DNA of 64,000 bases, taken from Roseobacter fucihabitans. Its GTDB lineage: Bacteria > Pseudomonadota > Alphaproteobacteria > Rhodobacterales > Rhodobacteraceae. The notes beneath the pieces were generated by a model, which saw only the letters and a program-made list of their open reading frames with translations, was not told where the DNA came from and made no database searches. The stretch's first letter is position 1; every line of letters begins with the position of its first letter. The translations under genes were made by a program, and so were the position numbers. Positions 20,198 through 56,274 of the stretch are shown here, piece after piece. The stretch lies in contig NZ_CP143423.1 of assembly GCF_014337925.2 (NCBI RefSeq), positions 3,998,501 through 4,062,500 on the forward strand, written 5' to 3'.

Positions 20198-21036
20198 ATG
20201 ATGAGGTTTCCGTTGAATAATGGCACTAAATGCGGTAGGTTCCTCGCAGAGCGATCATGCATCGAATATCCTGATGAGGTCAGGAGAGCGCCTTGAGCGT
20301 ATGCTGTTACAAGCTGTAGGTGTATGGGGTTCTGCCTAGGAATTCGGTTCCAGGCTGTAAAGCCGGAAGCTTCTGATGGGGAATCATTTTCCAAACCTGT
20401 CAGTTTTGAGTTTTTCAATACGAGTTTGGCCAACTCAACCTTTGGTTTGCGGGTCAAGGTACCGTGAGTTTTTTACGGATGAGGTGACGCCTAAAATCAC
20501 ATCGTTTAGTTGGAGTAAGTCATCAGTTTTTGAGTCTCGCGCTTCCATCCCAGTTAATGGGCCAAAAGTGAGCCCGTAATCTTTCCCCGCACCATTGTTC
20601 AGGATTTTCTGTAGGTCTGGGATTTTGGTGGTGCTATGCCTTCTGTCGAGGCACACGAAGCAGGACGCTTGCTCACAGTATCTTGCGATAAATTGGTGGA
20701 GAATGAGCTGATAGTAGTTTTTTGAGAGCCCTAGATCACGGTCGCCATCATTATATAGATGGTGCTTCCACTTTGAGTTGTCGAATGTGGCGCAATGGAA
20801 GGCGATCATGCCGCTGTCAACCATCTCAAAATATAGATTTATCAGATCCCGATAGGCATCAACTTTCTGATTTGATACCTTGCTCCACTTTAGTTCTGCA
20901 AACATGTTATGCCGCTTCCGAAATTCGAATACCCTTTGATAAATTTGCCTAAGATTAGATGAGACAGACTGGACCTGTCGCGCTTTTGTGCCGCCCCAGG
21001 TGCTCGTTTAAGCCACTTTCCGTTCAAAAGCGTACC

Positions 21037-21077
21037 ATTGCCCGGCAGGCGATTGCAAAGCAATCTGCCGAGAGGGG
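21037..21077 (+). repeat. Palindromic element family A, copy 1 (41 bp)
   Basis: Starts ATTGCCCGGCA, ends GAGAGGGG, with the hairpin GATTGC-AAA-GCAATC inside a GGCA/TGCC stem. In orfB of the IS3 element, in opposite orientation to the gene. Gene sequence between the two flanks is missing. Confidence 0.9.
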
Positions 21078-21189
21078 GCGGCATTATCATAGCAATTTCC
21101 TTTGCCGCTCATCGATACCTTGAAGCCATGCTGGCGCAGGACCTTCTGATAATCATGAGAACAATATTGGCTGCCGCGATCCGTGTGGT

Positions 21190-21230
21190 GCCCTCTCGGC
21201 AGATTACCTTGTAATCGCCTGTCGGGTAAT
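21190..21230 (-). repeat. Palindromic element family A, copy 2 (41 bp)
   Basis: Minus-strand copy with ends ATTACCCGACA and GAGAGGGC; the stem carries compensated changes (GATTAC/GTAATC). Excision restores the orfB codons I-Y-H-T-D. Target flank CATTT, the weakest match to the CATCC consensus. Confidence 0.88.
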
Positions 21231-21486
21231 AAATGCAGTCTTTCGGCGGTAACCGGAATGCAATCGCCATCTTCAGCGCCCTAATTGCCAGATCGCGCTT
21301 CATGCGATTACTGACGGCCCAACCAACGACGCGCCTTGAATGCAGGTCGAGGATGACAGCCAGGTACAACCAACCCTCTCGGGTCCAAACGTAGCTGATG
21401 TCACCAGCCCACTTCTGATTTGGCGCATCTGCGGTGAAGTCCCGATCCAGCAGGTTCGGCGCTATGTTGAACTTATGGTCGCTGTC

Positions 21487-21527
21487 CCCCTCTCAGCAGA
21501 TTGCTGTGCAATCGCCTGCCGGGCAAT
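21487..21527 (-). repeat. Palindromic element family A, copy 3 (41 bp)
   Basis: Minus-strand copy with ends ATTGCCCGGCA and GAGAGGGG and stem GATTGC/GCAATC. Inserted after CAACC in orfB; excision restores V-T-T-D-S-D-H-K. Confidence 0.9.
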
Positions 21528-21685
21528 GGTTGTGACCTTGTGTTTACGGGTCCTGACCACGGTTATTCCGTTCTGACGCATCAGACGACCAACACGACGA
21601 TGGCCAACATTCAGACCGATCTCCTTCAGCTCTTCAGTCATGCGCGGTCGACCATAGCTGCCCGGGCTGAGACGGGACCGCTCCT

Positions 21686-21721
21686 TCCCTCTCATGTATT
21701 TTCAATACACTGCCGGGCAAT
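21686..21721 (-). repeat. Palindromic element family A, copy 4 (36 bp, short hairpin)
   Basis: Minus-strand copy with ends ATTGCCCGGCA and GAGAGGGA but a different hairpin, TGTATT-GAA-AATACA. Inserted after CATCC in orfB; excision restores A-H-I-Q-E-R-S-R. Confidence 0.88.
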
Positions 21722-21856
21722 GGATGTGCGCAAGCGTGACCAAGTCAGACCGCCGTCTTCGGCTGGCAGGACGGTTGCGGAATGCGCGTAGCCCGCTTGT
21801 GCTGACGCCCACAACATTGCACAACCGGTTGGCTGGGAAGCTGCACCTGTGTTCTT

Positions 21857-21892
21857 CCCCTCTCGTGCATTTTCAATGCACTGCCGGGCAGT
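21857..21892 (-). repeat. Palindromic element family A, copy 5 (36 bp, short hairpin)
   Basis: Minus-strand copy with ends ACTGCCCGGCA and GAGAGGGG and hairpin GTGCATT-GAA-AATGCAC. Inserted after TATCC near the orfB start; 36 bases keep the frame. Excision restores R-F-I-Q-E-H-R. Confidence 0.9.
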
Positions 21893-21907
21893 GGATAAAC
21901 CTAAATC

Positions 21908-22183
21908 TCATTGCTTTAGGCCCGCGAAGAACTGGGTGGCCCTTTTTAAGATCTCCCTCTTCTCCTTCAGGAGTCGGTTCTCCCGTCGAAGTCGATCATT
22001 CTCTTGAGCGAGGCTCAAATCCTCTTTCGACACCACGTCTGTATCTCGGTGCGCGGTGATCCATTTGTTCAGCGTCGACATCCCGACACCCAGATCGCCA
22101 GCCACCTGCTTGCGCGTCAGCCCACTGGTCAATGCGATACGCATTGCATCTTGGCGGAATTCGTCCGTTCGTTTCAGTCCCAT
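21908..22183 (-). CDS. IS3 family OrfA (helix-turn-helix protein)
   Basis: 91 residues: LTRKQVAGDLGVGMSTLNKW is the helix-turn-helix, and DLSLAQENDRLRRENRLLKE is the leucine-zipper coiled coil that joins OrfA to OrfB. It ends ATGA, overlapping the orfB start, as needed for frameshift or coupled expression. It is intact although orfB is not. Confidence 0.88.
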   Translation of the reverse strand: MGLKRTDEFRQDAMRIALTSGLTRKQVAGDLGVGMSTLNKWITAHRDTDVVSKEDLSLAQENDRLRRENRLLKEKREILKRATQFFAGLKQ

Positions 22184-22370
22184 AGTCCGTCTCCTTTGGT
22201 GCAGTAAATGCTATCAAAGGAGCGGCATCAAACCGCGACAGGTCCAGCTGCCGTGCCACCTACCAATGAGAACTTGGCTGAGGTAATGTCGCTCTCATCC
22301 GCAAAAAATGCATACCTTTGAATAGGCAGCGGAAGGAATCTGAGTTTCTTTTCAGTCATAAGGAGATTAC

Positions 22371-22604
22371 ATGCCTGACGCCGACAAGAGTCAACTAGAC
22401 CGCTTCAAAGAAGCCGCCCGCGAGATCGGGACGGACGACGACGAAGCGAAGTTCAACGAGAAGCTAGGCAAGCTGGTCGCGCGTGAAAAGGTCAAATGCC
22501 TCGCCTGCGGTGGCACAGGCGTTATGCCCGTCGAAGACCGCAAGCACTTTCAAGACAGCGAAGACACGACCTGCAAAAACTGTAAAGGCGCAGGCGAAGT
22601 CTAG
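22371..22604 (+). CDS. Small zinc-ribbon (DnaJ-type CxxCxGxG) protein, transposon passenger
   Basis: 77 residues, acidic N-terminus followed by two CxxCxGxG-like knuckles: CLACGGTG and CKNCKGAGEV, separated by about 27 residues, as in the zinc-binding domain of DnaJ. It begins with AAGGAGATTAC as RBS, only 11 bases from the divergent DUF3800 start, and lies just inside the right end of the IS1595-type transposon. Function unknown; similar small proteins are seen as cargo of this type of element. Confidence 0.75.
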   Translation: MPDADKSQLDRFKEAAREIGTDDDEAKFNEKLGKLVAREKVKCLACGGTGVMPVEDRKHFQDSEDTTCKNCKGAGEV

Positions 22605-22618
22605 CCCTGCGTCACATC

Positions 22619-22642
22619 GGGTTTGTCAAGTATATAATCGCC
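22619..22642 (-). repeat. Right terminal inverted repeat of the IS1595-type transposon
   Basis: 24 bases identical to the reverse complement of 19163-19186; it sits 14 bases after the zinc-ribbon passenger gene's stop. Confidence 0.92.
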
Positions 22643-22649
22643 AAAAAAA

Positions 22650-22840
22650 GGACCTCGTCAACCTGTCACTGACGTAATTCAGTGCGTCTCAAGCCGCCGA
22701 GATACCCCCTGGTCGTGGCTTGTTGAAAAACGGTTCAAAAAACGATTTTGGGATTTCACGATAACCTTGAATGTTGGGCGCGCGCGCCGTTGTGCCCGAG
22801 CAGTTTTTCACGCTCTCACTGACAAAAAAATCCGGACGCC
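22650..22840. other. Gap between transposon end and prophage remnant; no gene seen
   Basis: Low-information sequence with no convincing frame. It presumably held the 3' part of the truncated phage peptidase gene or other prophage DNA now decayed. Confidence 0.5.
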
Positions 22841-23101
22841 CTAGCGCCCAGGGTATATTCCTTGAATGTTCTCTAACAAGCAGGCAAATAAACCAAGCAA
22901 GCAAACGCCACGAACTTTCTTGCCGCAACACCAGCTTAGTGTGTTACCGTCCTTCATGTAAGCGCCAAGCCAATCATCGGCCCATCCTTCGCCGTGAAGC
23001 TTGTGAAAACATGTGTTCGTGAAGGTCAGGCAATCGTGATCACCCCATGCGAAGGGCCTATCTCTCACGCTATCAAGATACGCGTTCAAGGCGCGCATCA
23101 T
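22841..23101 (-). pseudogene. Phage NlpC/P60-type cell wall peptidase, truncated
   Basis: Begins MMRALNAYLDSVRDRPFAWG then DHDCLTF, the DHDC motif holding the catalytic cysteine of the tail-associated NlpC/P60-like (DUF6950-type) peptidases found next to tail tip genes. Similarity ends after GAYMKDG (about residue 52); the rest of the frame looks unrelated. Its start overlaps the stop of the upstream tail gene (ATGA), the normal lambdoid and GTA order. Confidence 0.65.
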
Positions 23102-23577
23102 GGCTGCCGACCCCATGCGACTTCTTTGTCAGCCAGGTCAGCAACAAAGCTGAACCCCGTGTCACCGGGGAAAAGTGCCTGCTGGCTTTCATGCGTGTAC
23201 CGCTTGGCACGCGCGCGCTCCAACTCCACGAGCTTGCTGTCCACCAGCAAAGTAAATGCGCTTGTGTCGCCTGAATCCACCCCGTTCAGAGTATTCATAA
23301 GGCCGCTGAATACCTCGACAACATCGGCAACCCCGATCACCCCAAACATCACCCGGCACGCCCGGCCTTGATACGGTTCAATCAGCGCGAGTGAGACAAC
23401 TTCACTGGAGATACCAGACAGTGTTATTTCAGCGCCAATCGCGGTCAGATCTCCGGCCTCGCCAAATTCGCCTATGCCAAGAAAGCCACCCGCCCCGGCG
23501 TATGTCTCACCTTCTATGGTTAGATCATTGTAACCCGTCCATATCCGCAGGGGCGACCATGAGCGGAGCACGAACAA
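23098..23577 (-). pseudogene. Phage tail assembly protein, 5' truncated
   Basis: 159 residues in frame. It contains RIWTGYNDLTIEGETYAGAG, LSGISSEVVSLALIEPYQGR, FSGLMNTL and KRYTHESQQALFPGDTGFSF, a pattern I recognise from a tail protein that precedes the NlpC/P60 peptidase in Rhodobacterales prophages. The N-terminus is missing: the frame runs into the integrase fragment at about 23565. So a large internal deletion joined the tail module to the integrase. Confidence 0.65.
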
Positions 23578-23908
23578 GCGCCGCTTGCCCGCCCCAATAC
23601 CGCACCAGTTGTTGGCCCACCTTAAGCGATGGAAGTCTCAAGGCTCGGTGTGGGCTGTGGAATACGAGGGCGCGCGCGTTGGTGATGTAAAGCGAGCTTT
23701 CAGCAAGGCAACAAGATCCGCCGAGCTAGAAGGCGTCACGCCGCACACGCTAAAGCACACAGCAATCACTTGGACCCTACAGGGTGGCGCTACTGTCTGG
23801 GATTGCGCAGGGTTCTTTTCGACCAGTGCAGAAACAGTAGAGCGCACTTATGGGCACCATGCTGCGGACTACCAAGAATCGGCCCTAAGAGCCGTGGAGA
23901 GACGGTGA
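23567..23908 (+). pseudogene. Phage tyrosine integrase, C-terminal fragment
   Basis: Reads RRLPAPIPHQLLAHLKRWKS, then VTPHTLKHTAITW (catalytic HxxK/R region) and AETVERTYGHHAADY, which contains the last histidine and the nucleophilic tyrosine of site-specific recombinases. The N-terminal half is gone and phage tail sequence abuts it. It ends 69 bases from the 3' end of tRNA-Arg, the usual place for the integrase of an element integrated in a tRNA gene. Confidence 0.8.
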
Positions 23909-23976
23909 AAATGGGTGTTTCTGTTACGCGTAACAGAAATTCTATTGCGCAAAGAATTCAAAACCCCTTGTTTATA

Positions 23977-24053
<77 letters not shown>

Positions 24054-24186
24054 ATACCGTTCGCGAGATGCTTACGCCATGCTTACGCAAAATTTTCGTC
24101 GGCATGAAGAGCAAACCCGATATTCGCTCAAACCGTTGTTTAGTCACTTCTTTTTTCAACACCCTAAGACATCGCCAGATTTGACT

Positions 24187-24231
24187 TCCGCCCTCGGAGG
24201 GCGGCGCTCCATCCACCTGAGCTATGGGTGC
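24187..24231 (-). pseudogene. 5' part of a second tRNA-Arg (CCG-like), truncated
   Basis: The minus strand from 24231 reads GCACCCATAGCTCAGGTGG through an anticodon arm CCGCC-CTCCGAG-GGCGG, paralleling the intact tRNA-Arg 178 bases away. The variable loop, T arm and acceptor 3' strand are missing. Its anticodon stem has paired differences from the intact copy, so it is a related but distinct gene. Probably the host tRNA cut by integration, with the downstream copy brought or restored by the element. Confidence 0.7.
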
Positions 24232-24521
24232 CTCACAGTATCGAACTGACTGAACTGCGCTTACCGGACCTTCAACCTTATTGCATCAGAAACCAAGCCG
24301 TCTGCAAGGCGCTTTTCGCGTGATGACCTCCGAATTTTCGTTTTTCCATAGTAGGCAATAAAATTCGGAGGTCAATTTTGATGCAACTGCGCTGCAAACG
24401 CTTTTACTCGACGGCAAATACGTATGCGATCAACGCGTTGAAGGCCTGCAAATGCAAATCGCGGTTTGATAGCATAGGGCCTTCTGGCGAAAAACAGAAC
24501 GTGTTGAATGTCATTGAGAAC
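24232..24521. other. Non-coding stretch with one strong inverted repeat
   Basis: No gene seen. It contains the 14-bp inverted repeat described separately (24325-24373) and ends at the IS21 terminus. Confidence 0.5.
24325..24373. repeat. 14-bp perfect inverted repeat with 21-base loop
   Basis: GACCTCCGAATTTT at 24325-24338 pairs exactly with AAAATTCGGAGGTC at 24360-24373; one further T-A pair extends it. It could be a terminator-like hairpin, a regulator site or the ends of a tiny non-autonomous element. Confidence 0.6.
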
Positions 24522-24721
24522 TGAGCCGGTATTTTCACCGAGATTTGACCCGCTGTTAGTTATGTATCGGTAGCTATGCTTTGGTCAATGTGGTGGCCTC
24601 CTTTGTGGTTTTCTTTGCGGCCTCTGAGCTGGTCTTGAAGCGGTAGCTGTCGTTGCCTGTTTCGAGGATGTTGCAGCGGTGGGTAAGCCGGTCGAGCAAC
24701 GCTGTTGTCATCTTTGCATCC

Positions 24722-24763
24722 ATTGCCCGGCAGTCGTTTTGTGCAGCAAAACGATGAGAGGGG
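24722..24763 (+). repeat. Palindromic element family A, copy 6 (42 bp)
   Basis: Ends ATTGCCCGGCA and GAGAGGGG with hairpin TCGTTTTG-TGCAG-CAAAACGA. After CATCC in istB; 42 bases keep the frame and excision restores V-F-G-D-A-K-M. Confidence 0.9.
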
Positions 24764-24898
24764 CCAAAGACCTGGGCCCATTCACTGAAGCTGAGGTTGG
24801 TTGTGATGATGACACTGGTGCGCTCATAGAGCTTGCTCATAAGGTGGAACAGCAGTGCGCCGCCTGACGGGCTGAACGGCAGGTAGCCAAGCTCGTCC

Positions 24899-24935
24899 AT
24901 TGCCCGGCAATGCATGTTTACATGCATGAGAGGGG
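24899..24935 (+). repeat. Palindromic element family A, copy 7 (37 bp)
   Basis: Ends ATTGCCCGGCA and GAGAGGGG with hairpin ATGCATGT-TT-ACATGCAT. After CGTCC in istB; excision restores the Walker B sequence L-V-I-L-D-E-L-G-Y. Confidence 0.9.
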
Positions 24936-24975
24936 AGGATGACCAAGTCGATTTTTGTGAGCATCTCAGCCATTC

Positions 24976-25015
24976 ACTGACCGGCAGGGTATCGCGACGC
25001 GATGTCCCGAGAGGT
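24976..25015 (+). repeat. Palindromic element family A, degenerate copy 8 (about 40 bp)
   Basis: Ends ACTGACCGGCA and CGAGAGGT with hairpin ATCGC-GAC-GCGAT. It follows CATTC in istB between K-A-G-K and M-A-E-M. Ends are partly mutated, so it looks older than the others. Confidence 0.75.
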
Positions 25016-25175
25016 TTCCCGGCCTTTCCGAGGGCCTTTTCCTGTTCCAATGCATTGACCAGTTCGACGGTGGAATAGAAGCGCACTTTGCGTCTGTGGT
25101 GCTCACCGATAGCGGTGGCAACATGGCTTTTGCCGGTTCCAGGTCCGCCAATCAGAACCACGTTTTCCGCATTCT

Positions 25176-25216
25176 CCCCTCTCGGCAGATTGCTTCGCAA
25201 TACCCTGCCGGGCAAT
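25176..25216 (-). repeat. Palindromic element family A, copy 9 (41 bp)
   Basis: Minus-strand copy with ends ATTGCCCGGCA and GAGAGGGG and hairpin TATTGC-GAA-GCAATC. After CATAC in istB; excision restores E-F-I-Q-N-A-E-N-V-V. Confidence 0.9.
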
Positions 25217-25440
25217 GTATGAACTCACTACGATGGAGTTGACGAACTGTGGCCTCATTGATGTCGCTCGACGCGCAGTCAAAACCCGTGAGGTCCTTAT
25301 AGGATGGGAAGCGCGCCACCTTGGTGTGATAGGCAATGGATCGCACTTCGCGTTCCGCCATTTCCGCCTTGAGCAGTTGAGACAACATCGGGGTGGCCGC
25401 CTCAAATGCTGGAACACCTTGTGTAACCAGACCGTCAACC

Positions 25441-25480
25441 ACTGCCCGACAGGGTATTGCGCAGCAATGCACGAAAGGGG
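25441..25480 (+). repeat. Palindromic element family A, copy 10 (40 bp)
   Basis: Ends ACTGCCCGACA and CGAAAGGGG with hairpin TATTGC-GCA-GCAATG. After CAACC near the istB start. Confidence 0.85.
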
Positions 25481-25493
25481 GCATGCGCCATGT

Positions 25494-25537
25494 CGCACCA
25501 AAGGTGCGCAATTATAGATGCTCGCCTTTGGCGAGAC
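25494..25537 (+). repeat. Palindromic element family B, copy 1 (44 bp, double hairpin)
   Basis: Two hairpins in tandem: CGCACC-AAA-GGTGCG and CTCGCC-TTT-GGCGAG, joined by an A/T-rich spacer, ending GAC. It lies in istB between the codons for K-L and H-M-A-H-A. A second copy sits at 55195-55242 in an unrelated transposase. Confidence 0.85.
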
Positions 25538-25584
25538 GCAGCTTGAGACTGCGCAGCATGATGATAATGGAAGCTCCTGCAGGA

Positions 25585-25982
25585 TCATGACGCATTGCGC
25601 TTGCCTCCTGCCTGTCTGAGGTCGTCATAGCGATCCACATTTGCCTTTGGGGCGGTTTCCAATGCAAGAGCATCCATTGCCCGACAGGCGATTGCAAAGC
25701 AATCTGCCGAGAGGGGGGCGGATCGATCTCTGGGTGATCTGTCTGCTTGGGATCGATCAGTCTATGCAACGGGTTCAGGATATGTGTCTTCGTCGGCACC
25801 CCAGCTTCCAGCGCCAGCTCAACTGCACGCAGGACGGCGCTTTCGTCGTGGTGTAAATGGCGCCAATCATAGATGACTTTGCCTGGCTTGCGATGGGATC
25901 GGTCAATGATGCGCTCATGTGTGCAGACGGTTTGGCCTTGAGCCACAATGACCAACCGTTCTGGGTAAACGCCTGATGTCAT
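25585..25982 (-). pseudogene. istA: IstA transposase of IS21, C-terminal fragment
   Basis: Contains GVYPERLVIVAQGQTVCTHE, IIDRSHRKPGKVIYDWRH and, after an apparent small deletion, AVLRAVELALEAGVPTKTHI, the C-terminus of IS21 transposases. The DDE catalytic domain is absent. A 41-base palindrome at 25676-25716 interrupts P-P-D-A-L-A-L. It ends 26 bases before the istB start in the normal istA-istB order. Confidence 0.82.
25676..25716 (+). repeat. Palindromic element family A, copy 11 (41 bp)
   Basis: Ends ATTGCCCGACA and GAGAGGGG with hairpin GATTGC-AAA-GCAATC, nearly identical to copy 1. After CATCC in istA; excision restores D-P-P-D-A-L-A-L. Confidence 0.9.
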
Positions 25983-28232: not shown

Positions 28233-28816
28233 TTGACGCGTGCCGCCAGCGCCGAAGACCTCAGCGCACAGGTTGAGGCAGATTTCGGGCAACTCGACCC
28301 GGCCTTTTGGCAAAGCACGTCAGATGTCAACGTGATCCACGCCATTTTCCCGAAATTGATCGAGTTCAAGAATAGTGAGACTTGGGATTGGGAGCTTTCC
28401 TCTGCTGAAAGCATCGAGCAGGTCGATGAGTTGACGATCCGGTTCAAGCTGAAGCCGGGGTTGATGTGGACAAATGGCTACGGCGAGGTCACAGCGGAAG
28501 ATGTTGAGTATTCATTCGAACGCTTCAATAACGAAGCACTTGCGGCATCAAATGCAGGCGACTGGGCACCTCTCAAAGACGTTGAAGTGGTCGACACGTA
28601 TACTGGCCTGATCCATCTGAATGAACCTTTTGCCCCGATCTGGTGGAGCACGCTTCCCTATGCAGCCGGGTCGATCATCAGCAAAAAGGCAACCGAAGAA
28701 CAAGGCGGTACTTTTACGACGGCACCGAAAGCCACAGCAGGCCCTTACAAAATCGATCGCTGGGACCAGGGACAGCGCACTGTCCTGGTTGCTCATGAGG
28801 GTTGGAACGGCGACAC
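28233..28816 (+). pseudogene. Peptide ABC transporter substrate-binding protein (SBP_bac_5), fragment
   Basis: About 195 residues of a family-5 binding protein without signal peptide: DPAFWQSTSDVNVIHAIFPK, LTIRFKLKPGLMWTNGYGEV, AEDVEYSFERF and GPYKIDRW. It begins with a TTG in frame at a junction with another gene fragment and runs without a stop into IS256 transposase sequence after HEGWNGD, giving a chimeric 277-codon frame to 29066. The C-terminal two thirds are absent from the window. Confidence 0.8.
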
Positions 28817-29365
28817 GACGGTCCAGACCTGCATCGTGCATCTTGTGCGCCATTCCCTGAACTTCTGCGGCTGGAAGGACCGCAAGAATGTCGCCAAGGA
28901 TTTGAAGCGGGTTTACTCCCCTGCCTGGCAGGTGATGTTTACATCACCGAGAAGGAGGCCACCGGTGACGGTGAGGCTGAAAAGGCTCTGGCTGACTTTG
29001 AGGCTGAATGGGGCCAGAAATATCCTTCAATCGCCCCAAGTTGGCGTCGGGCATGGCAAGAAGTGATCCCGTTCTTTGCCTTCCCGCCTGCCGTGCGCAA
29101 AATCATCTACACCACCAATGCCATCGAAAGCCTTAACCGCGTCATCCGAAAAACCACCAAAACACGCGGCAGCTTTCCAACAGATGATGCCGCACCCAAG
29201 CTGATCTATCTGGCGATCCGCAGCTTCGAGAAGGCTGGTAGGTGCGTCAGACAATTGGTGGACGCTCGAAATCGGTTCGCTATCCTATACCCAGAACGGT
29301 TCAGCAAATAACCCGTCTCAACCGCATGAGCTGAGCCTCATACACAGAGTTTCGGATACTCTCTG
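28817..29365 (+). mobile_element. IS256-family remnant (5' truncated, frameshifted transposase, right end present)
   Basis: Transposase C-terminal half: VQTCIVHLVRHSLNFCGWKD in one frame, then LADFEAEWGQKYPSIAPSWR, VIPFFAFPPAVRKIIYTTNA and IESLNRVIRKTTKTRG in another. The break is near 28920. A stop at 29311 is followed by CAGAGTTTCGGATACTCTC at about 29344, which resembles an IS256-type terminal repeat. The N-terminal half was lost when it fused with the binding-protein gene. Confidence 0.82.
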
Positions 29366-55242: not shown

Positions 55243-56274
55243 CGGGGTCGGCCATGACCCACCATCCCCATGTCCATGTCATTGTACCGGGCGGTAGGTT
55301 ATCGCCGGATTGCACTCGCTGGATCGCCTGCCGTCCCTGGTTCTTCCTGCCGGTGAAGGTGCTGTCGCGGTTGTTCAGGCGCTTGTTTATCGAAGGTCTG
55401 ATCCGATTGCACAAGGCTGGCAAGCTGGCCTTCGTCGGTGATCTGGCAAATTTGGTTGACCCCGATACCTTCGCGGCACGCCTTGCCCCGCTGTGCAGAA
55501 CGAATTGGATGGTTTATGCCAAACCACCTTCGACGGGCCTGAGGCTGTGCTGGCGTACTTGAGCCGTTACGCGCACCGCGTGGCGATCTCAAGCCACCGC
55601 CTGATCAGCACTGACACCAATACTGTGGCCTTCCGCTGGAAAGACTATCGGATCAAGCGGGGGGATCGCCGATCGGTCATGCACCTGACCGCGGATGAGT
55701 TCATTCGCCGGTTGCTGATCCACGTCCTGCCCTCCGGCTTCCACCGCATCCGCCACACCGGCTTCCTCGCAAATGTCCTCCGGCGCGACAGGATCGCAAA
55801 GATCAGGCGGTTGCTTGATACAGAACCTGGCCAGACACCCGTTGAGGGAGAAAACAACAGTCCCGAAGATAAGGATGCCCGTCAGTCTTGCCCCAAATGC
55901 GGTGGCGCGATGATGATCATTGAGACCGTCTAGCGGGGGCAAACACCAAAGTCCCGCGCCCCGCCATGGGAGGCCGCCGCATGATACAACGCCCAAACCC
56001 GGCTCCCCTGCGCAGGCACCGGGCAAGTCGGTGCGGCCAAATCACCAAAACCTTCTCTGCAAAAAGCATGTGGCAGAAAGATGCGAGATCAATTGGCCAG
56101 GTCAGGCTAGCAAAAGCGATATACTTGCATTTCGCGTCGTCACTGCGACGGTCGTTATGCATAAGGATAACCGTAGCCCTAGACCACAATCCCCACAGCA
56201 TCGAAACCCGCCCGCGCTTTATTCCTTGTCGGATTTGTCGCCGATGCAGCTTACGCTAACAGCAGCCACAAACC

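Follow-up and report, generated by a model that had tools for sequence, protein, structure and literature searches.

The nearest described kind of sequence to the one considered here is the CGTC-tagged repetitive extragenic palindrome (REP), a class of short palindromes found mainly in alphaproteobacteria, with no dedicated transposase known (Di Nocera et al. 2013, PMC3733652). Here we describe, from marine Rhodobacteraceae, a family of non-autonomous, REP-like palindromic insertions of about 34-45 bp in a stretch of 64,000 nucleotides from Roseobacter fucihabitans (assembly GCF_014337925.2, contig NZ_CP143423.1, positions 3,998,501 to 4,062,500), which we call the window. In the open-access literature that was searched no earlier description of the family was found, and the word Rhodobacter is absent from the main text of PMC3733652. 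The reading that we favor, with a probability of about 0.62, is that these are REP-like, non-autonomous mobile hairpins whose flanks are fixed and whose stem varies freely but is nearly always paired, and that insert directionally 3' of roughly CRTC.

How does the family compare with known systems? Its likeness to the CGTC REPs lies in the variable stems; those palindromes carry a tag, CGTC, TGTC or CCTC, at one end (PMC3733652). As that source describes them, however, CGTC REPs are mostly intergenic and predominantly head-to-head dimers, with loops of 4-5 bases, an unpaired tail that is often CCA and stems that start with AT, whereas the present elements are, in their own genome, single units in transposase genes, with loops mostly of 2-3 bases and a 3' end of GAGAGGG. 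Unlike the tag of the CGTC REPs as described there, the tag of the present family belongs to the target. If the present elements are minimal mobile DNA specialized on other mobile DNA, as proposed tentatively below, the lack of an own transposase among the CGTC REPs would be explained, and their tag too may be that of the target. The GTAG REPs of the REP-associated tyrosine transposase (RAYT, or TnpA-REP) system, so far as PMC8266576 describes them, are similar in being palindromes, some with a bulge, that are recognized as single strands; the present elements differ in having no GTAG at the palindrome foot, and the loci discussed below show neither a RAYT nor a Y1 gene with elements on both sides. 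The Rickettsia palindromic elements (RPE) are likewise palindromes inside alphaproteobacterial genes, where, by the account in PMC3733652, they encode part of the protein. The host genes of the present family are transposases, and the element length shifts the frame at 84 of the 94 sites defined below (84 of 91 if three doubtful sites are left out), being a multiple of three at 10. Miniature inverted-repeat transposable elements (MITEs) are also small, non-autonomous and present in many copies; neither the target duplication nor the transposase-type terminal inverted repeats of a MITE derived from a DDE transposon were found in the present elements.

Directional insertion into formerly whole sites

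The first-pass annotation, made from the window sequence, listed eleven copies with fixed ends around a hairpin whose sequence varies while its pairing is kept. A covariance model, for which we selected 16 elements, recovers all eleven in the 64-kb window, at E values of 4.6e-15 to 7.4e-6, and adds a twelfth at E 3.6e-4; the next window match has E 0.36, so that no further match lies below E 0.01. A first regular expression had found 10 of the 11, missing the copy at 24975-25015 because that copy is diverged. All 12 elements lie in transposase relics, five in an insertion sequence (IS) of the IS3 family, six in an IS21 and one in an IS256-type gene (Table 1). The earlier description of two unrelated transposase genes has to be widened to three in the window and to about ten families in the genome. 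Orientation is antisense to the host gene for one of the five elements in IS3 and for five of the six in IS21.

Alignment with uninterrupted homologues, which also gives the insertion ends used here, shows the elements to have entered formerly whole sites. Compared with L071 and L074, four of the five IS3 copies have entered cleanly, their lengths being 36, 36, 41 and 41 bp; in the IS21, comparison with L073 shows each of the six copies to be an insertion, 37-42 bp long. In none of these is the target repeated. The claim of insertion without target duplication is thus borne out for ten of the eleven copies first listed; the exception is the fifth IS3 copy (21036-21076), which is joined to a loss of 108 bp of orfB, a part which we take to be the region of the catalytic Glu, the last catalytic residue. 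At its site two diverged IS3 copies of the R. fucihabitans genome, L038 and L048, carry insertions of 41 and 40 bp. Deletions that stop exactly at an element are seen in L038 and at 21036 in the window, and look as if they came from recombination of two elements or from a break at an element end.

Insertion is directional, 3' of roughly CRTC, mostly before G, and without target duplication. From 101 unique sites seven were excluded for misfit of the 5' end. YRHC stands directly before the element at 42 of the remaining 94, compared with 5.3% in the flanks, and G directly follows it at 69 of the 94; the preceding tetramers include CATC (12 sites), GTCC (7), CAAC (7), CGTC (6) and TGTC (4). Three of the 94 (L151, L161 and L163) resemble chance matches, and without them YRHC is found at 42 of 91. 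The pentamers named in the first-pass annotation as preceding the 5' end are correct, and its view of a non-autonomous family inserted 3' of a short motif extends to the rest of the genome and to relatives. At the IS3 sites a similar tetramer is present in homologues without the element, and the tag therefore belongs to the target.

Might the filled sites nevertheless be ancestral sequence? The same IS does carry elements at identical sites elsewhere: reference position 353 of the IS3 is filled, in the same orientation, in R. fucihabitans and six other genomes, with six kinds of stem, two of them nearly alike. On the IS3 tree, however, filled lineages are interspersed with empty ones, and L225, which is empty, is the sister of the window copy (support 0.98). 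Filled lineages stand at six places on the tree, of which the neighbors L242 and L248 may share one event, and some nodes are weakly supported. This mixing of filled and empty lineages argues for repeated hits, or local exchange, and against ancestral sequence. Two R. fucihabitans IS3 copies have a variant element in common, in almost the same base context, which may reflect descent or local exchange.

The ends of the element are fixed, C-R-Y-TGCCCGGCAG on the 5' side and GAGAGGG on the 3' side, flanks that can also be given as GCCCGGCA and GAGAGGG. Between them, an alignment of 16 members from the length class of 41-42 bases, again chosen by us, shows two-sided changes in seven of the nine pairs of the inner stem, and the covariation score of 0.463 compares with a mean of 0.139 for shuffled alignments, none of 500 of which reaches it. 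Over the whole structure 99.0% of cells are paired, a figure that drops to 33-51% when the partner is slid by one to three columns; the outer CCC/GGG foot is invariant and therefore uninformative on pairing. RNA energies give one fold for all 11 members tested, in which the CCC/GGG foot is followed by a GGCA/GAGA internal loop and then by the variable stem. The longer stems carry an unpaired base. Loops were counted at 89 of the 101 sites, those with a stem of at least 4, representing 49 distinct stems. The closing pair of triloops is C-G in 51 of 56, and 28 of 56 are GNA; two-base loops are TT in 13 of 18, and 15 loops have other sizes. Loops are mostly C-NNA-G, then, or TT closed by C-G or T-A. 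Such loops form very stable DNA hairpins, and the loop sequences may point to folded single-stranded DNA.

How far has the family spread? A strict pattern matches 97 times in the R. fucihabitans genome and its backward control not at all, at least one match (at 3050388) being without a hairpin; a looser pattern gives at least 124 matches, a few without a hairpin, and one in the backward control. The strict pattern is found in 157 of 387 genomes, with counts above five confined to the host's own family; low counts are partly chance, since in many genomes the backward control gives matches too. A single 33-bp member, in which two positions allow two bases each, was retrieved from 67 stretches of public genome sequence, of which 63 are from Rhodobacterales, judging by their titles. 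The 67 form 40 flank clusters, or about 40 sites: one sequence has spread to many sites. The single clusters L313, L323 and L330 may be diverged copies of other clusters, and some clusters unite flanks merely 65-85% identical next to the same element, whose identity there is by design, because the search queried that element. The family provides a natural record of how a very small DNA inserts. Empty sites are clear, there is a target motif, and the stems come in dozens of forms, so that the rules of recognition, fixed flanks and a stem that counts by structure only, can be read from it.

Host genes in the genome and elsewhere

In the R. fucihabitans genome 27 separate host regions were examined, and in 26 of them evidence of a transposase or integrase lies at the element or within about 350 bp of it; the other, L288, is unclear. 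In five of the 26 the family match is near the element and does not touch it. The hosts comprise IS3, IS21, IS66, IS1182, IS256, IS5, IS110, IS1595, IS630, an IS200-type gene and one tyrosine integrase. Elements have entered formerly whole sites, have hit one site repeatedly in different genomes, and in this genome reside in transposase genes and one integrase gene. Why should mobile-element genes collect them? The simplest reading would be tolerance of insertion combined with carriage by the IS, though this does not fully account for the density.

Two other explanations of this residence deserve attention. One is that insertion is random and elements are seen only where they are harmless. In its favor, IS relics are dispersed, neutral DNA, the target motif occurs commonly in all kinds of sequence, and some genomes carry intergenic copies. 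The non-coding DNA of the window, however, is free of elements despite having 219 candidate YRHC-G sites against 104 in IS relics (non-coding DNA being defined here by frames of 100 aa only), and the placement of 12 of 12 elements in the relics has a chance of about 1e-6 if both compartments are equally open. A pure safe haven also fits poorly with the nine inserts, eight of the present family, in a single IS21, though istA there has large deletions too, and we consider this explanation doubtful. The other is selective targeting, in which hairpins are put preferentially into transposase and integrase genes, for example as host silencing or by a specialized parasite. The 26 of 27 regions and the window placement would agree with this, as would the occupation of the same genes by unrelated palindromic families. 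Several findings speak against it. The genome search for the window IS3 gave no whole copy; it gave a relative matching 19 times at 67%, and no element lies within the 14 of these copies that were examined. No targeting machinery was found in this analysis, further hits in a dead gene silence nothing more, and outside this genome the preference for transposases is less evident, as described below; targeting is, in our estimation, unlikely.

The family is not restricted to IS everywhere. In G126 seven copies (L254-L256 and L258-L261) stand behind a conserved leader near TCATCTTGCCAAATAAACTC, and those examined lie between cell genes, L255 between amidohydrolase genes and L258 between HNH and ornithine-cyclodeaminase genes; these copies are an intergenic REP-like form of the family. 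Five copies in G090 (L265-L269) have AT-rich stems in most cases and a common GC-rich stretch before the element, and the one examined, L266, lies between PIN-domain and peptidase genes. Copies between cell genes, as in G126 and G090, count against targeting. Among 110 reading-frame pieces from 39 representatives of the 40 flank clusters (L321, with no piece long enough, is omitted) transposase families prevail, and ABC_tran, Bac_DnaA, RadC, ResIII, GH43_C2, AAA_21, AAA_29 and RsgA occur once each, some perhaps from IstB; because pieces are not sites, no host rate is drawn from this set.

The mover and the state of the interrupted IS

What moves the elements? On the reading that we favor, the transposition substrate would be folded single-stranded DNA, and a strand-transfer enzyme supplied in trans would act at both flanks. 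Insertion would inactivate the transposase, and interrupted copies, mobilized in trans and passed on by horizontal transfer, would then carry the elements through the Rhodobacteraceae. The first-pass annotation had proposed an HUH enzyme of the IS200/IS605 or RAYT kind, and the way in which the elements insert, in one orientation, 3' of a short motif and with no duplicated target, is indeed that of the IS200/IS605 type, with which the hairpin, the unpaired base of longer stems and the DNA-type loops also agree. We reject a resident Y1 HUH enzyme as the general cause, however, since Y1_Tnp gene content does not fit the carriers. At E<=0.001 Y1_Tnp is absent from 15 of the 19 genomes with pattern matches, including G016, a single contig with 12 matches, and G031, which consists of two contigs and has 11, and in a broader sample just 13 of 59 genomes have it. 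The R. fucihabitans genome has ten Y1_Tnp matches, and at none of these loci did a pattern scan find element ends around the gene, the arrangement that the first-pass annotation had suggested looking for; elements at these loci are confined to the inside of a three-copy Y1 gene. The IS91-type Y2 transposase, present in 6 of 16 genomes and missing from 10 (among them G008, which has no element), does not track the carriers either. Carriers may have received their elements inside IS, and the present absence is therefore compatible with a past Y1 enzyme; that a resident Y1 TnpA moves the elements as REPs seems to us quite unlikely. The three-copy gene just mentioned is an IS200-type Y1 transposase (L168-L170), each copy of which is broken by the same element near the C-terminal end.

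Interrupted IS are multi-copy at 99-100% identity, the window IS3 among them, and each near-identical copy of the latter has the same insertions over the part covered. Five full copies of 1277 bp have different surroundings and all five lack the catalytic region, and therefore the IS3 probably moved in trans. For whole copies the ratio of nonsynonymous to synonymous divergence (dN/dS) is 0.052 in one pair and 0.047 in another; between the window IS3 and its nearest whole relative it is 0.107, a higher value, as a recent functional loss would predict. Additional lesions are present in L038, L048, L240, L241 and L252. Could the transposases instead stay active, the elements being removed at the RNA level like mini-introns or passed over by the ribosome? 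Bypassing elements of the latter kind, byps, are found in mitochondria. Such an explanation might draw on the multi-copy state of interrupted IS, on frames that are otherwise clean in L234 and L280, and on the low dN of 0.059 beside a dS of 0.92 between two IS3 lineages with shared sites. But elements occur in both orientations, the IS3 would still be without its catalytic region after any removal, and the scatter of filled lineages on the tree suggests that selection is older than insertion; dN/dS of the window copy, moreover, is above that of the whole pairs. Purifying selection after insertion was considered as a sign of splicing or bypass and was dropped, as the tree shows repeated hits or local exchange. 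Removal or bypass would appear very improbable.

We return to the reading of directional, REP-like insertions served by an enzyme in trans, against which several findings weigh. The Y1_Tnp and Y2_Tnp searches identified no enzyme, and DNA energies yield no single common fold for the 11 members tested. Among near-identical IS copies in the R. fucihabitans genome no pair of filled and empty sites was seen, so that current movement is not demonstrated; equal 3-bp flanks are found for one of the five full IS3 copies (L052), so that transposition as IS3 units is poorly documented. L234, with four elements, and L280, with three, have no other frame lesion, which is odd if they are long dead. In other genomes, finally, the bias to transposase genes is less clear: of 23 sampled sites 10 have a transposase family (for L216 the call is from HTH_32 alone), three (L155, L181 and L200) have a cell-gene family in the reading frame next to the element, and 10 could be placed in neither class. 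At three of these 10 (L175, L195 and L223) a cell-gene family lies at a distance of 170-360 bp.

A broader proposal is that several unrelated hairpin families of 36-45 bp would form a class of minimal mobile DNA specialized on other mobile DNA; they would prefer the transposase and integrase genes of many kinds of element, use a target-derived CRTC tag, and be moved by a single-strand strand-transfer enzyme other than a Y1 HUH protein, inactivating transposons throughout a bacterial family; this we put forward tentatively, as rather unlikely. What moves the transposase-less palindromes of alphaproteobacteria becomes a testable question, and the gathering of the elements in transposase genes raises another question.

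Features of the window and other palindromic inserts

Table 1. Palindromic elements and their host relics in the window (positions counted from its first nucleotide)
Feature	Position	Strand	Evidence or remark
IS3-family element, 1277 bp between inverted repeats, orfA and orfB	20970..22246	-	five insertions; 108 bp of orfB lost beside the 21036 insertion
Palindromic element, 41 bp, antisense to orfB, adjoins the 108-bp deletion	21036..21076	+	homologue alignment, covariance model
Palindromic element, 41 bp, sense, variant ends TATTACCCGACA	21191..21231	-	homologue alignment, covariance model
Palindromic element, 41 bp, sense, between KVTT and DSDHK codons	21488..21528	-	homologue alignment, covariance model
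Palindromic element, 36 bp, sense	21687..21722	-	homologue alignment, covariance model
Palindromic element, 36 bp, sense, reference position 353; same site filled in six other genomes	21858..21893	-	alignment, covariance model
IS21 remnant, istB and 3' part of istA; six elements and one unrelated palindromic insert	24574..25982	-	
Palindromic element, 42 bp, antisense to istB	24721..24762	+	homologue alignment, covariance model
Palindromic element, 37 bp, antisense to istB	24898..24934	+	homologue alignment, covariance model
Diverged palindromic element, 41 bp, antisense to istB	24975..25015	+	homologue alignment, covariance model
Palindromic element, 41 bp, sense	25177..25217	-	homologue alignment, covariance model
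Palindromic element, 40 bp, antisense, variant ends	25440..25479	+	homologue alignment, covariance model
Palindromic insert, 41 bp, unrelated sequence family, in the same IS21	25495..25535	.	homologue alignment; also at the site in congener G012
Palindromic element, 41 bp, antisense to istA, GCCCGACA variant	25675..25715	+	homologue alignment, covariance model
IS256-type (Transposase_mut) gene relic, fused to the end of a solute-binding-protein frame	28815..29311	+	
Twelfth element, absent from the first-pass annotation	28919..28956	+	splits the Transposase_mut (Mutator-type) match between profile positions 282 and 288

At gathering scores Rfam gives one tRNA in the window and no other match. 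A tRNA-Arg gene lies at 23977-24053 on the - strand, with an apparent partial tRNA repeat at about 24176-24233; the frame at 23585-23908 has a weak phage-integrase match (E 0.0084), and the segment 23585-24233 is perhaps the remnant of an integrated element. An IS91-type (Y2_Tnp) transposase lies in two pieces at 55245-55777.

Palindromic inserts of other families are found in the same kinds of gene. A second family of about 36-38 bp, with the core CCATTGTCCTCGGACC...GGCGGACAATGG, is present in the IS3 copies L229, L232 and L252 and in the IS21 copy L281, and was found twice at one IS3 site, in different genomes. A third kind of insert, of at least 43 bp and with cores like GATCCGGGGGATC, is seen in the IS3 copies L242, L250 and L252, two 43-bp inserts of this kind sharing one site in two genomes. 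The fourth is the 41-bp double palindrome CTCGCCAAAGGCGAG...GCGCACCTTTGGTGC listed in Table 1 at 25495, which occurs in R. fucihabitans and its congener (L281 and L282) at IS21 reference position 1661.

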